Assembly: GCF_001613795.1 (NCBI RefSeq)
Contig: NZ_LPVZ01000024.1
Coordinates: forward strand, 124,001 to 188,000
Direction of reading: 5' to 3'
Length of the DNA: 64,000 nucleotides
Source of the DNA: Thalassospira sp. MCCC 1A01148
GTDB lineage: Bacteria > Pseudomonadota > Alphaproteobacteria > Rhodospirillales > Thalassospiraceae
Below the pieces are notes generated by a model. That model saw only the letters and a program-made list of their open reading frames with translations. It searched no databases and had not been told where the DNA came from. This document shows positions 15,003 to 19,105 of the stretch, one piece after another. The position numbers and the translations under genes were made by a program. How positions within the stretch are numbered: position 1 is the stretch's first letter; each line of letters begins with the position of its first letter.

Positions 15003-15035
15003 AACGGCACGGCAGATTTGCACTGCCGTGCCGTT
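15003..15035 (-). terminator. 13-bp stem-loop after the NPC-repeat gene
   Basis: AACGGCACGGCAG and its exact complement CTGCCGTGCCGTT flank a 7-base loop, 32 bases past the stop codon. It lacks a good U-tract on the minus strand, so it may end transcription weakly or protect the mRNA 3-prime end. Confidence 0.6.
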
Positions 15036-15066: not shown

Positions 15067-15768
15067 TCAATACGCCGCACACGGGTTCCCCGCGCCACAT
15101 GGATTATAGGCTGCACAGGGATTGGTTGCGGCACACGGATTGGCAACCGCCGGCGCACATGGGGACGCCGCACAGGGCGCCGCAGCGCATGGGTTAAAAG
15201 CAGCACACGGATTCCCCGCCGCACAGGGACTGCCAGCCGAGCAAGGATTATATGCCGCACAAGGGTTGGCGCTGCACGGTGCTGCCGCGCACGGATTTAC
15301 CGAGCGAACCCCGCTTGGGCTGAAGGCCCCGCACGGGCTACTGACATTTCCCGCGCCGCAAGGATTATAGGCGGCACATGGATTGGCAGAACACGGACTT
15401 GCAGCACATGGACTTGCAGCACACGGATTCGCAGCGCAGGGATTATAGCCAGCGCCGCAAGGGTTACCCGCACACGGGTTGGCCGCACACGGATTATATC
15501 CCGCACCACATGGATTCGCACCGCACGGGTTATACCCGGCCGCGCATGGGTTGGCTGAACAAGGGTTCGCGGCACAAGGGTTCGCGGCACAAGGGTTTGC
15601 GGCGCACGGGTTGGCACCACACGGATTGCTGCCCGCACCCGGAAGTTTGACCGGGACCGGATTGGCAACAGCCGGGATGTTTGCGGTGTGGCTATAGTGA
15701 TCAAGCGCAACGGCACCGGTTGCCGCAAGGAACACTGCGCCAAACAGAAGTGTGTTTTTCTCGCTCAT
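15067..15768 (-). CDS. Exported Cys-rich protein built of Asn-Pro-Cys pentapeptide repeats
   Basis: A 233-residue protein of a kind I cannot assign to any named family. Residues 6-22 (TLLFGAVFLAATGAVAL) form a hydrophobic export signal or anchor. A short linker is followed from residue 48 to the end by repeats of the type N-P-C-A-A, N-P-C-G-A, S-P-C-A-A and A-P-C-S-A. I count 31 cysteines, every one preceded by proline, most spaced exactly five residues apart, with Tyr or Phe inserted now and then (AAYNPC, AGYNPC). There is almost no charge beyond the N-terminal region. The start codon overlaps the stop of the YeeE/YedE transporter gene as ATGA, so it is translationally coupled to a sulfur transporter and lies two genes from an exported rhodanese. 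Possible roles, all inference: a thiol/persulfide store, a metal-binding protein, or a disulfide-cross-linked envelope protein. Confidence 0.8.
   Translation of the reverse strand: MSEKNTLLFGAVFLAATGAVALDHYSHTANIPAVANPVPVKLPGAGSNPCGANPCAANPCAANPCAANPCSANPCAAGYNPCGANPCGAGYNPCAANPCAGNPCGAGYNPCAANPCAASPCAASPCSANPCAAYNPCGAGNVSSPCGAFSPSGVRSVNPCAAAPCSANPCAAYNPCSAGSPCAAGNPCAAFNPCAAAPCAASPCAPAVANPCAATNPCAAYNPCGAGNPCAAY
15070..15627 (-). repeat. 15-bp tandem repeat array encoding the N-P-C pentapeptides
   Basis: The coding sequence is a degenerate 15-base tandem array. Adjacent units around 15557-15610 are nearly identical (minus-strand core CCTTGTGCCGCG), whereas others differ mainly at third positions. 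The pattern implies growth by unequal crossing-over or slippage under selection to keep Pro-Cys. Confidence 0.85.
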
Positions 15769-16976
15769 TTCCGGAAACCATCCATTCCAAAGACAGGACG
15801 CAGTGCAATGCCAATCCAGCTACCGGCAAAGGCCAGGGCAAACCAAAGCCAGCCATGCACACTGCCCGAGGCGATCCCGCTAAAGAACGCGCCGATATTG
15901 CAACCAAATGCCAACCGCGCACCATAGCCCATCAGAAGCCCGCCAATGGCCGCCGCCAAAAGGGATGCGACAGGCACAGATACCTTTGGGGCGAATTTAC
16001 CTGCCAGCGCCGCGGCAAAGGCAGCCCCGATCACGATGCCGAAATTCATCACCGATGTGTTGTCTTGCAGGACCGAGTTGCCAAGCGCACGCGCCGGACC
16101 ACCCCAGTTCCAGAATTCCCAGGTCTCAACCGGAATCCCCATCACCTGTGCGATCTTCGCCCCCCAAAGGCCAAAGCCAAAGGTGATCGACCACGGATGA
16201 CCGGCAATCAAAAGCGTCGCGACATTCAGCCCGGCCAGAAGCACCCCGGTCCAGATCATCGGCCACGGGCCGTGAATGAAGCGTGCCAGACCTTCACGTG
16301 GCGCAGTTGACACCACTTCAAGCCCGCCATGGGCACGCTTTTCAACAATAACCGTCAACAGCGCCACCAGTGCGAGACCACCAAAGGTCACCGCAAGACC
16401 ACCGCCAACACCGTATTCGCGCCCAAGGCTCATCGGTGGCAAGGATGGCAGTTCCAGCCACATCGGCAAATGGGCCGTGCCGATGACAGCACCAACAATA
16501 AAGAAGACAAGTGTGACCAGCATGCGCGCACTACCGCCGCCAACCGTAAACAGCGTGCCAGAGCCACAACCCCCACCAAGCTGCATGCCAAGACCAAACA
16601 GAAACGCCCCGATCAGAACTGACATACCAACAGGCGCAACCGCACCAACGACCGATCCGCCCAGCGGACTACCAAGCGAAAGCATCGGAATGAAGGCCGC
16701 AGCCGCAATGCCGATCATCAAAAGCTGCGCACGCAGGGCACGGCCGCGCTTTTCAACGGAAAACCGCCGCCAGCCGCCGGTGAAGCCAAAGGATGCATGA
16801 TAAAGCGCGATACCGAGCATCCCGCCAAGGCCATAAAGAACAGCCTGTTTCAGATCGACGGCCTGCGAAATTGCAATGCCGACAATGACAAACAGGACGG
16901 CGGTGATGGCGGCCGGTCCCTTGTCAAAGGTAAAACCCGGGGACACCGGATTTGCTTTTAGGGTCGTTTCAGACAT
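15765..16976 (-). CDS. YeeE/YedE family (TsuA-like) sulfur transporter
   Basis: A 403-residue inner-membrane protein of the YeeE/YedE (Sulf_transp, DUF395) family, whose characterised member TsuA imports thiosulfate. About ten hydrophobic segments in two related halves, with the family's conserved cysteines in GMQLGGGCGSGTLFTVGGG and GYGARLAFGCNIGAFFSGIASGS, which in TsuA relay thiosulfate. ATG at 16976 is chosen; an in-frame TTG at 16988 adds four residues. Lies between the rhodanese gene and the NPC-repeat gene on one strand; overlaps the latter by four bases. Together they suggest handling of thiosulfate or another sulfane-sulfur compound. Confidence 0.9.
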   Translation of the reverse strand: MSETTLKANPVSPGFTFDKGPAAITAVLFVIVGIAISQAVDLKQAVLYGLGGMLGIALYHASFGFTGGWRRFSVEKRGRALRAQLLMIGIAAAAFIPMLSLGSPLGGSVVGAVAPVGMSVLIGAFLFGLGMQLGGGCGSGTLFTVGGGSARMLVTLVFFIVGAVIGTAHLPMWLELPSLPPMSLGREYGVGGGLAVTFGGLALVALLTVIVEKRAHGGLEVVSTAPREGLARFIHGPWPMIWTGVLLAGLNVATLLIAGHPWSITFGFGLWGAKIAQVMGIPVETWEFWNWGGPARALGNSVLQDNTSVMNFGIVIGAAFAAALAGKFAPKVSVPVASLLAAAIGGLLMGYGARLAFGCNIGAFFSGIASGSVHGWLWFALAFAGSWIGIALRPVFGMDGFRK

Positions 16977-17012
16977 GGTGAGGCTCAATAACCTGAAATC
17001 AGATACTTAAAT

Positions 17013-17083: not shown

Positions 17084-18007
17084 TTATTCCGGGATAACCA
17101 TTTCACGGTTCGGATCCGCCGCCCATTCGGTCATGGAGCCATCATACATGGCCGTGTTCTTGTTGCCCATCACTTCGGAAAGACCGAACCACGCGACCGA
17201 GGCCCAATGACCAGTGTTGCAATAGGTGATTTCCTTGGCATCCTTGGAAACACCGGCATCCGCAACAAGGTTTTCAATCACATCAGCGGCAACAAAGGCA
17301 CCGTCCTGATCGCTATAGAACTGCGACTGCGGGATGTTTTTTGCACCCGGAACGGCACCGGGACGGGCAACCACGCCACTTTTTGCCTGACCGGTGAACT
17401 GTGAAACCGGGCGGGCATCCACAAGCTCGACACCGTTTTCCCGCGCCTTCGCAACATCATCAGCGGTTGCAAGAAGTTCGGGGCGGAAATCAGCATTAAA
17501 CGCCACGGCACGCGGTGAAACCGGGTCGGTCGAAACGGCCTTGCCTGCTGCAAGCCATGCGCGCTGACCACCATCAAGAATGGTCACCGCATCATGTCCC
17601 AGAACCTTGAAGGTCCAGTATACACGGGTGGCGGAGCCAAAGTCGGAGCTGTTTTGACCGGCGGGGACAACAACGACCTGCTTGTCATTGTCGATGCCCA
17701 GCGCACCGATGCGTTTGGAAATCACATCAACCGGCGGCAGCATGCCAACCACATTGTCGACTTTTGCACGCCAGCCAAATTTCCCATAGGGCGCATACAC
17801 CGCACCGGGAATATGCCCGGCATCATAAGGATTGCCATCCTTGGTCATGGACCGGATATCAACAACAACCAGTGACGGGTTATCGAGATTTTCCTCGACC
17901 CAGTTGGCATCAACCAACGGCTTTTCGGTAAGGCGTTCGGCCTGCGCAGCACTTCCGGCAAAGACAAAAGTGACCGCTGCAACGGCAGAAAGAATAAGGG
18001 AACGCAT
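17084..18007 (-). CDS. Exported thiosulfate sulfurtransferase (two-domain rhodanese)
   Basis: A 307-residue protein with a signal peptide (MRSLILSAVAAVTFVFAGSAAQA) and two rhodanese domains. The first lacks a catalytic cysteine (VVVVPAGQNSSDFG at that place) while the second has the active-site loop CNTGHWAS with C263, the usual division of labour in tandem rhodaneses. It should transfer sulfane sulfur in the periplasm. The start at 18007 is supported by GGAGA upstream; a longer reading would need a TTG. Head of the sulfur gene set on the minus strand, with the YeeE/YedE transporter and the NPC-repeat protein behind it. Confidence 0.92.
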   Translation of the reverse strand: MRSLILSAVAAVTFVFAGSAAQAERLTEKPLVDANWVEENLDNPSLVVVDIRSMTKDGNPYDAGHIPGAVYAPYGKFGWRAKVDNVVGMLPPVDVISKRIGALGIDNDKQVVVVPAGQNSSDFGSATRVYWTFKVLGHDAVTILDGGQRAWLAAGKAVSTDPVSPRAVAFNADFRPELLATADDVAKARENGVELVDARPVSQFTGQAKSGVVARPGAVPGAKNIPQSQFYSDQDGAFVAADVIENLVADAGVSKDAKEITYCNTGHWASVAWFGLSEVMGNKNTAMYDGSMTEWAADPNREMVIPE

Positions 18008-18159
18008 GGGGCTGTCTCCAATGATCAATTCATCATGATTTTGTGCATCATACCTAATTCGTCACAGCGAAATGTCAATAGACTCAGTATAACACATAAT
18101 ATATGTATTAATGAATCAACACTTGCCGTACAGTGGCAACCTTCGGCCCGATTCAACGC

Positions 18160-18894
18160 CTAGGGACGCAGGTTATTCAAATAACGGGCAAATTCGCGTG
18201 CAAAGGAATCCTGGGTTTCCAGATTGCGCAAGGCGGGCGGCCGTGTGAGGAAGCCGTGCAGTGAGGCAATGATGAACTCGGCAACGGCAGATGGTTCGAT
18301 ATCGGTGCGCACGGTCTTGTTGAACTGGGCCTTGCCGATGTGCGATGCCAATCCGCGCCGCCAATAGCGATAAACACCATCGATACGCTTGCGCAGGTTT
18401 TCATCCAGCTCACCTGCCCCCGATGCCAAACGCGCCAAAGGGCATCCGCCCGCCAGCATGTCCGGGGCATTTTCACCGCCCAGCCGATCCACCTGCCCCA
18501 TCAGAACCGGCAGGATATCATCTGCCCCTTCAAGGTCACTCAGCCAGACGTCATCCACATAGCCCGGCAGGCATTCCTCAATCACGGCGTTAACCAGTTT
18601 GGCCTTGCCCGAAAAGTGATGATACAGCGCACCTTTCGTACAGCCGCTTTGTTCAAGGATGTTGCTGATGGAAGCGCCCCCGAACCCCGCCCGGCGGATT
18701 TCACCAAAGGCCGCGTCGAGAAGCTTCTGGCGGGTGGCATCCGGATTGCGCACCCGTTTTGGCACCAGTGCCGTTTCAGACGAACCGTCCAGTTCCATGC
18801 TTTCGCCGACTTCCAAAACATCGTCGTCGGGATTTTCATCGGGACGCGAAATTCGGGAAAGGGCAGCAGAGAAACTGAATGGTTCTTTGGACAT
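18160..18894 (-). CDS. TetR-family transcriptional regulator with N-terminal extension
   Basis: A 244-residue regulator. The DNA-binding domain begins near residue 50 (NPDATRQKLLDAAFGEIRRAGFGGASISNILEQSGCTKGALYHHFSGKAKLVNAVIEECL), an unmistakable TetR helix-turn-helix; the C-terminal part is helical with the segment MLAGGCPLARLASGAG common in AcrR/NemR-like repressors. Unusual is the roughly 45-residue acidic, probably disordered N-terminus before the HTH. A start at 18894 is used; a later start is possible. It is transcribed divergently from nadK and, on the other side, towards the rhodanese promoter; its target is unknown. Confidence 0.82.
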   Translation of the reverse strand: MSKEPFSFSAALSRISRPDENPDDDVLEVGESMELDGSSETALVPKRVRNPDATRQKLLDAAFGEIRRAGFGGASISNILEQSGCTKGALYHHFSGKAKLVNAVIEECLPGYVDDVWLSDLEGADDILPVLMGQVDRLGGENAPDMLAGGCPLARLASGAGELDENLRKRIDGVYRYWRRGLASHIGKAQFNKTVRTDIEPSAVAEFIIASLHGFLTRPPALRNLETQDSFAREFARYLNNLRP

Positions 18895-19105
18895 TGAGCC
18901 GTACTGTTTTGTTTTGAACCGGGGATAGGAACCCGTGTCTGTCACGTTCCACTGTTTTTTTCGTGACGTCAATAACACAGCGGTCCAATCGAGACCTCTG
19001 TATAGGGGTGATCGTCACGCAGCCCCTTGCAATTCAGATCAAAGCGTACTCTATTGTTTGCCCATGCCCTTTCGGGCCGAGCCCCAATCGTCCTTCGGAT
19101 CGCAA

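Follow-up and report, generated by a model that had tools for sequence, protein, structure and literature searches.

What task is served by a protein in which every cysteine follows a proline, and why should its gene be joined to that of a sulfur transporter? The window analysed here, a stretch of 64,000 nucleotides from Thalassospira sp. MCCC 1A01148, carries such a gene, hereafter npc (family A), in a run of genes read from the same strand:

15067..15768, minus strand: npc gene (family A), 233 aa with 31 Pro-Cys, NPC-repeat protein with a signal-like start
15070..15627, minus strand: NPC repeat region, residues 48-233, predicted disordered, charged residues nearly absent
15703..15768, minus strand: signal-peptide-like N-terminus, residues 1-22, putative AxA-type cleavage site between AVA and LDH
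15765..15768, minus strand: ATGA overlap of the YeeE-type stop and the npc start
15765..16988, minus strand: YeeE/YedE-type sulfur transporter (PF04143 Sulf_transp), about 400 aa, start codon uncertain
17084..18028, minus strand: two-domain rhodanese (PF00581, two stretches), signal-like start, start codon uncertain
18160..18978, minus strand: TetR-type regulator (PF00440/PF16925), candidate regulator of the run

The npc gene and its run in Thalassospira

All 31 cysteines of the npc protein directly follow a proline (31/31), within the tripeptides NPC (24), SPC (5) and APC (2), and shuffling of the repeat part gives this arrangement a chance probability of about 10^-32.6. The initial annotation had the cysteine counts exactly right, together with the coordinates, the strand and the length of 233 aa. 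Its five-residue period is the commonest spacing, found in 16 of the 30 Cys-Cys intervals, but the rest measure 6 (eight intervals), 7 (three), or 8, 9 and 14 (one each), so the period is not strict. In line with the same annotation, the protein fits none of the named families scanned: a Pfam scan at E<=1 matched 0 families, leaving pentapeptide repeat proteins without a match, and the model of CefA, a RiPP peptide, stayed under its cut-off. Export and the cleavage site are putative, read from the N-terminal sequence. An AxA motif precedes the site in 25/27 distinct family A sequences, the other two having GVA and AVV, and the Asp-His right after it is invariant (27/27). AlphaFold2 predicts a disordered chain (mean pLDDT 37, pTM 0.11; alignment depth only 17 sequences) whose single predicted helix spans 12 residues (6-17). 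Examined for a right-handed beta-helix, the same model shows this disorder, and it lends no support to the proposal of a solenoid with its cysteines lined up as a ladder. The predicted disorder would suit a metallothionein-like sink just as well as a flexible carrier. Downstream of npc, at window positions 15003-15035, lies a perfect 13-base inverted repeat with a 7-base loop and no T run following on the npc strand.

A whole-genome search found a family A orthologue in 25/25 Thalassospira genomes (G000-G024). Across 17 orthologues the pooled pN/pS of the repeat is 0.166, an approximate value, since it depends on a MAFFT alignment of repeats and on a pS (0.78) close to saturation. At aligned cysteine codons, 1146 pair cells are synonymous (TGT/TGC) against 142 that lose the cysteine, about 8-fold. 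The number of cysteines varies freely, from 14 to 31 in Thalassospira and down to 7 and 8 in the other genus with family A orthologues. The overlap of the npc ATG with the stop of the YeeE/YedE gene, correctly noted at the outset, is kept as ATGA in 27/27 Thalassospira-type loci examined, a count that some genomes enter twice, from two collections. In 26 of these loci the YeeE stop can be seen; the remaining one (L148) is truncated by a contig end. In L099 and L100, from the other genus, the corresponding ATG stands just downstream of the YeeE stop instead. Since selection acts at the codon level, the gene occurs in all 25 genomes, its start overlap is conserved and an orthologue exists in another order, npc is a real gene under purifying selection and not a frame artefact.

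The upstream gene passes PF04143 (244.5 bits against a cut-off of 27), and its alignment with Spirochaeta thermophila TsuA keeps the cysteines of both GGGCGSG and AFGCNIG, which places it, on sequence, in the superfamily of TsuA. It falls under the cut-offs of the thiosulfate transporter models (67.5 bits against 400 for NF052577, 42.8 against 645 for NF041049), and among NCBIfam models it scores highest with that of the selenium protein YedE/FdhT, where 125 bits stay under the cut-off of 350. The rhodanese gene also lies where it had been described, upstream on the same strand, with a start that looks signal-like by eye. It scores 91 bits with PF00581, its best solved thiosulfate sulfurtransferase is 3aax (E 7.6e-40), and its CNTGHWAS aligns with the CRIGERSS loop in the thiosulfate sulfurtransferase comparison; it also matches a selenite/tellurite-operon model, with a score under the cut-off. 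Because both proteins score with selenium/tellurium models, these scores do not fix the substrate. The rhodanese accompanies the YeeE-npc pair in all Thalassospira loci compared except L040, L049 and L148. L040 lacks both the rhodanese and the TetR gene there, and the other two loci start at a contig end. TetR stands upstream of the rhodanese in 9/11 loci compared, with three frames between them in L039; it is absent in L040 and out of reach beyond the contig end in L049. Among 13 window neighbours scanned (8.2 to 22.6 kb), 12 were assigned and one has no Pfam family. Beyond the run they include a DEAD helicase, a cold-shock protein, NAD kinase, an M20 peptidase, an aldehyde dehydrogenase, ABC and MFS transport genes, DUF188 and a second TetR, and the 12 assigned include neither a metal gene nor a radical SAM gene.

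The wider group of NPC-repeat proteins and its partners

NPC-repeat matches occur in 42/385 genomes of an even sample of the class and in 44/398 of a phylum sample. The 42 genomes rest on a single query at E<=0.001, for which no more than 12 candidates were scored in each genome, and some matches with an internal stop (for example in G071, G239 and G363) may be false, all being kept in n. Named records include MAGs of Rhodospirillales, Thiotrichaceae, Deltaproteobacteria, Nitrospinota and Gemmatimonadota. NPC-repeat proteins thus form a widespread group and apparently an undescribed protein type. Family A itself is narrower: among 11 genomes searched in the order of the second lineage, 8 matched, with orthologues in 2, both of one genus, and the other 6 carry other NPC proteins (7 loci re-read).

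Thalassospira has a second NPC locus (family B), whose protein combines a signal-like start with NPCAA/NPCAAK repeats; it was matched in 22/25 genomes of the genus, one of them weakly, and was unmatched in G010, G019 and G023. An FGE-sulfatase-type gene lies near it in all 19 family B loci compared and a DUF6969 (PF22308) gene in 18, the Pfam check of this neighbourhood having been run on one locus. In the genome of the window the family B gene is at G000:C20:162095-162406 (L046:9958-10413), near genes for FGE-sulfatase, DUF6969, a fused TRAP transporter and what looks by eye like a cytochrome c, a neighbourhood mostly kept across the 19 loci.

NPC repeats are also fused to other domains. A Cytochrome_P460 domain is over cut-off in L168 and L188 and just under in L114, and other proteins share the tail by eye. 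SoxA/TsdA cytochrome c (PF21342) fusions occur in several lineages, over cut-off in L102, L121, L126, L143, L144, L165 and L184 and just under in L193, though none of the cytochrome domains scanned reaches the SoxA equivalog cut-off of 110 bits (best 54.5). The L075 protein joins the repeats to a phosphatase domain of BLH type, and its gene adjoins a YeeE split into two pieces. No YeeE-NPC fusion was found among 76 YeeE reading frames.

Do the partners of the window gene recur with the repeat? A YeeE gene (PF04143) lies within 5 kb of an NPC gene in 9/42 genomes from 7 genera, against 0.21 expected under random placement of genes, and no simulation exceeded 4. The test took matches over the curated cut-off and entered 32 genomes with both genes, the actual number being 33; in the one left out (G145) YeeE and the NPC gene are on separate contigs, which leaves the observed count untouched and the expected one hardly changed. 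In the remaining 33/42 genomes of the class sample no YeeE was found within 5 kb, although contig ends may hide some. This weakens the interpretation given in the initial annotation, while the link to sulfur genes does recur well outside the genus. DUF6969 is the more frequent neighbour, within 5 kb in 23/42 genomes (expected 0.17) and within 10 kb in 26. It is present in 36/42 NPC genomes against 54/343 others (Fisher p 6e-20, a value inflated by related species, for which adjacency is the better evidence). SoxY shows no association (11/42 NPC genomes, 90/343 others), and MNIO (PF05114) was found within 10 kb of an NPC gene in 0/42 genomes, the nearest at 11.4 kb, with 14/42 carrying any MNIO.

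Clustering of neighbours with no prior list, at the 62 of 76 listed loci that passed the NPC frame filter, again put DUF6969 first (21 loci), followed by a multihaem cytochrome (10) and cytochrome c (9). YeeE, an ArsS-type radical SAM and a cluster left unannotated came next at 7 loci each, then FGE (6); representatives of only some of the 28 largest clusters were annotated, and YeeE is undercounted, L100, L101 and L213 having failed the filter and some frames being masked. A tree of 31 rows, restricted to YeeE of NPC-bearing genomes (one of 20 stretches gave no frame), groups the YeeE of both orders with 99/99 support. Six rows are set apart by a long branch; by their coordinates, three of the six have SoxY within 3 kb, and 0 of the 12 NPC-adjacent YeeE belong to this group.

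Individual loci outside Thalassospira repeat the set in other arrangements. In another order of the class (L100), rhodanese, YeeE, npc and DUF6969 form a same-strand run; its rhodanese (311 aa) scores 383 bits with the profile of Thalassospira rhodaneses, its npc shares the N-terminus MKDRNTLLFG..AADH, and its YeeE belongs to the 99/99 group. In another class, G601 has in order a rhodanese-like gene, two PF04143 half genes, a 77-aa NPC gene, DUF6969, a rhodanese and an ArsR/BigR-like regulator (under the BigR cut-off). Past opposite-strand transporter-type genes, soxC, a cytochrome gene (by eye), soxY, soxZ, soxA, soxX and soxB begin 4.5 kb downstream, the six sox names being over NCBIfam cut-offs. 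G764, of the same class as G601, repeats the run of split YeeE, NPC, DUF6969 and rhodanese, with no sox genes noticed in the 19 kb read. YeeE lies beside NPC genes in four further named MAG loci (4/34 loci outside Thalassospira): L178, L181 and L185 each combine YeeE and DUF6969 with two NPC genes, and L177, which is cut short by a contig end, has YeeE and two NPC genes. Since the same gene set recurs despite different order and lineage, it is hard to explain other than by a shared task. Close to YeeE, some NPC loci also encode a small Cys-containing protein with a signal-like start (L181:3345-3818; also L109, L178 and L185), whose L181 copy matched neither Pfam nor NCBIfam, and a DUF302 gene directly precedes YeeE at L114:9725-10201 and L178:2555-3052.

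Other loci have a different surrounding. In L104 the neighbours of the NPC gene include an HMA gene and a flavoprotein disulfide reductase that looks MerA-like by eye. L102 (G383:C197) has split YeeE genes beside an NPC-SoxA/TsdA cytochrome fusion, with a MerA-type profile match on the other strand. L195 (8746-10561) carries an NPC-SoxA-type cytochrome fusion near an ArsS-type radical SAM, an arsenite methyltransferase and a multihaem cytochrome. ArsS-type genes also lie near NPC genes in L196, L199 and L210 (with L195, from one family outside the class), ArsS-like ones in L179, L180 and L194, and in L106 and L107 NPC genes adjoin VTT-domain membrane proteins. Given the mercury and arsenic neighbours, the P460 fusions, the selenium/tellurium model matches and the YeeE and SoxY counts, thiol-loving species in general may be what the wider family handles, family A being its branch tied to YeeE.

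DUF6969, as exemplified by L046:8029-8796, has no signal-like start. Its AlphaFold2 model is fairly confident (pLDDT 82, pTM 0.86), and five histidines (H81, H83, H92, H94 and H126) are invariant in 7 sequences, placed on or beside consecutive predicted strands, which suggests the HxH...HxH pattern as a candidate metal site. Neither sequence comparison at E<=1 nor the fold searches run gave a PDB relative, the papers searched do not mention the name, and no activity is known.

What the npc protein may do

We tentatively propose, as the reading ranked first although we hold it at somewhat less than an even chance, that the npc protein is an exported and flexible polythiol that keeps sulfane sulfur available to the YeeE importer. 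Thiosulfate or polysulfide would be the source of this sulfur. Aided by the exported rhodanese, the cysteines of npc, which proline and small residues keep apart, would bind it in the form of Cys-persulfide or Cys-thiosulfonate. The protein would then hold this sulfur or pass it to the transporter, acting as buffer and local donor, and DUF6969 might add a step by preparing the cysteines. In this way it could fill the place of a SoxYZ-type carrier or buffer where SoxYZ is missing, as in the genome of the window, in which SoxY (PF13501) has no match. The gene, its conservation, its coupling to YeeE and the set of partners are observed; the steps from the rhodanese through the npc thiols to YeeE are what we infer from them.

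SoxY is small and folded and has a single carrier cysteine, whereas the NPC protein is predicted to be disordered and has many; the 12 NPC-adjacent YeeE fall outside the long-branch group of six, three of which lie near SoxY. The likeness lies in the proposed arrangement, in which a periplasmic protein carries sulfane sulfur on cysteine beside a PF04143 importer. In PMC11582611 the YeeE-like SoxT1A is considered to take in the sulfur that SoxYZ, a periplasmic carrier, gives off from its persulfidated form.

A role in sulfur handling is favoured by the ATGA-coupled YeeE-npc pair across the genus loci examined, the four-gene run in a second order with its grouped YeeE, the excess of YeeE adjacency, the G601 run that precedes sox genes, and the SoxA/TsdA fusions. 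Several results pull the other way, namely the 33 genomes with no YeeE close by, the missing SoxY association, the lack of SoxY in the window genome, the mercury and arsenic neighbours, the lack of any YeeE-NPC fusion, the unreached SoxA equivalog cut-off, the substrate left unfixed by the selenium/tellurium scores, and the fusions to P460-type haem domains, for which we know of no sulfur role. The persulfide or sulfane-sulfur carrier or store suggested by the initial annotation accordingly stands in part: the link to sulfur genes recurs, but it is partial and metal neighbours occur, and sequence by itself cannot separate a store from a sink or a scaffold.

Ranked second is soft-metal sequestration, which we consider a serious rival, though less likely than the sulfur reading. 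Here the npc protein would be a periplasmic sink for Cu(I), Zn, Hg or As, and the sulfur genes would only supply or move thiol sulfur. Thirty-one thiols on a predicted disordered chain with almost no charge would suit such a sink. Metallothioneins likewise have many cysteines and little fold without metal, but the NPC protein differs from them in lacking a Pfam match, in its signal-like start and in the proline before each cysteine. The putative mature N-terminus, X-Asp-His, could form a Cu(II)/Ni(II) site of the ATCUN type; this idea rests on the putative cleavage site, however, and 2/27 sequences lack a strict AxA. The HMA/MerA-like (L104), MerA-type (L102) and ArsM/ArsS (L195) neighbours, with the ArsS-like cluster in 7/62 loci, also point towards metals, whereas no metal gene is among the 12 assigned window neighbours and family A recurs in the company of YeeE, rhodanese and DUF6969. 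PMC12452194 describes bufferins as exported Cys-rich copper chelators; like these and other MNIO-modified precursors, NPC proteins are apparently exported, variable in length and Cys-rich, some precursors having repeated cysteine motifs and many cysteines. NPC proteins differ in their motif (NPC, not EGKCG or CxxxxC) and in their partners, MNIO not being adjacent. The only MNIO match of the window genome is on another contig, where a cluster (G000:C12:322-2947, L068) is likely a bufferin-type RiPP locus. MNIO is accompanied there by three proteins named by eye, a probable DUF2063-type partner, a probable DoxX-like membrane protein and a small one that contains cysteine behind a signal-like start.

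A composite of these elements is rather more doubtful: DUF6969, as a cytoplasmic metalloenzyme or chaperone, would prepare the Pro-Cys thiols, and npc and the rhodanese would then gather sulfane sulfur in the periplasm and deliver it to a YeeE subfamily distinct from the sox-linked one or, in cytochrome-fused members, to a SoxA/TsdA-like or P460-like haem that would oxidise it.

That NPC proteins are RiPP-like substrates, with cysteines altered in the cytoplasm by DUF6969 or an FGE-like protein before they serve as sulfur or metal ligands, we regard as improbable. The strong co-occurrence and adjacency of DUF6969 argue for it, the invariant HxH pairs would suit a metal site, and FGE accompanies family B in every locus compared. 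Yet DUF6969 is an enzyme candidate with neither known activity nor PDB relative, kinship inflates its Fisher value, 54 genomes carry it with no detected NPC gene, and in the two Thalassospira genomes searched it stands at the family B locus and not beside the window npc. CefA (NF038108), a RiPP peptide with a tandem cysteine about every fifth residue, resembles npc in that spacing. CefA systems have a radical SAM partner gene, which is missing among the window neighbours scanned. As a candidate identity for npc, CefA was rejected at 15.3 bits against a cut-off of 30, with 0 matches at E<=0.001 in a genome scan.

Still less probable is a redox buffer or cross-linked envelope scaffold, in which npc disulfides within or between chains would protect the transporter and rhodanese or tether envelope proteins. 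Many close cysteines behind a signal-like start and the cytochrome-fused relatives are compatible with this, but the cysteine number is free (7 to 31 in family A), the spacing is loose, no anchor motif was noticed by eye, and the YeeE/DUF6969/rhodanese set would go unexplained. Finally, the tandem, length-variable repeats and the long frames on the opposite strand might be taken for a functionless low-complexity expansion or a spurious frame, which is hardly credible in the face of codon-level purifying selection, the conserved start overlap, presence in every genus genome and the L100 orthologue in another order.

Possible meaning for sulfur handover and for Cys-rich proteins

The shared repeat, partners and fusions group scattered, unnamed Cys-rich proteins and give DUF6969 a context. 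If the protein were a metal sink, it would stand for a non-MNIO class of exported Cys-rich metal sinks. To our knowledge there is no settled route for sulfur handover to YeeE-family importers without SoxYZ, and the NPC/DUF6969/YeeE set is a compact candidate for one in a cultivable genus.
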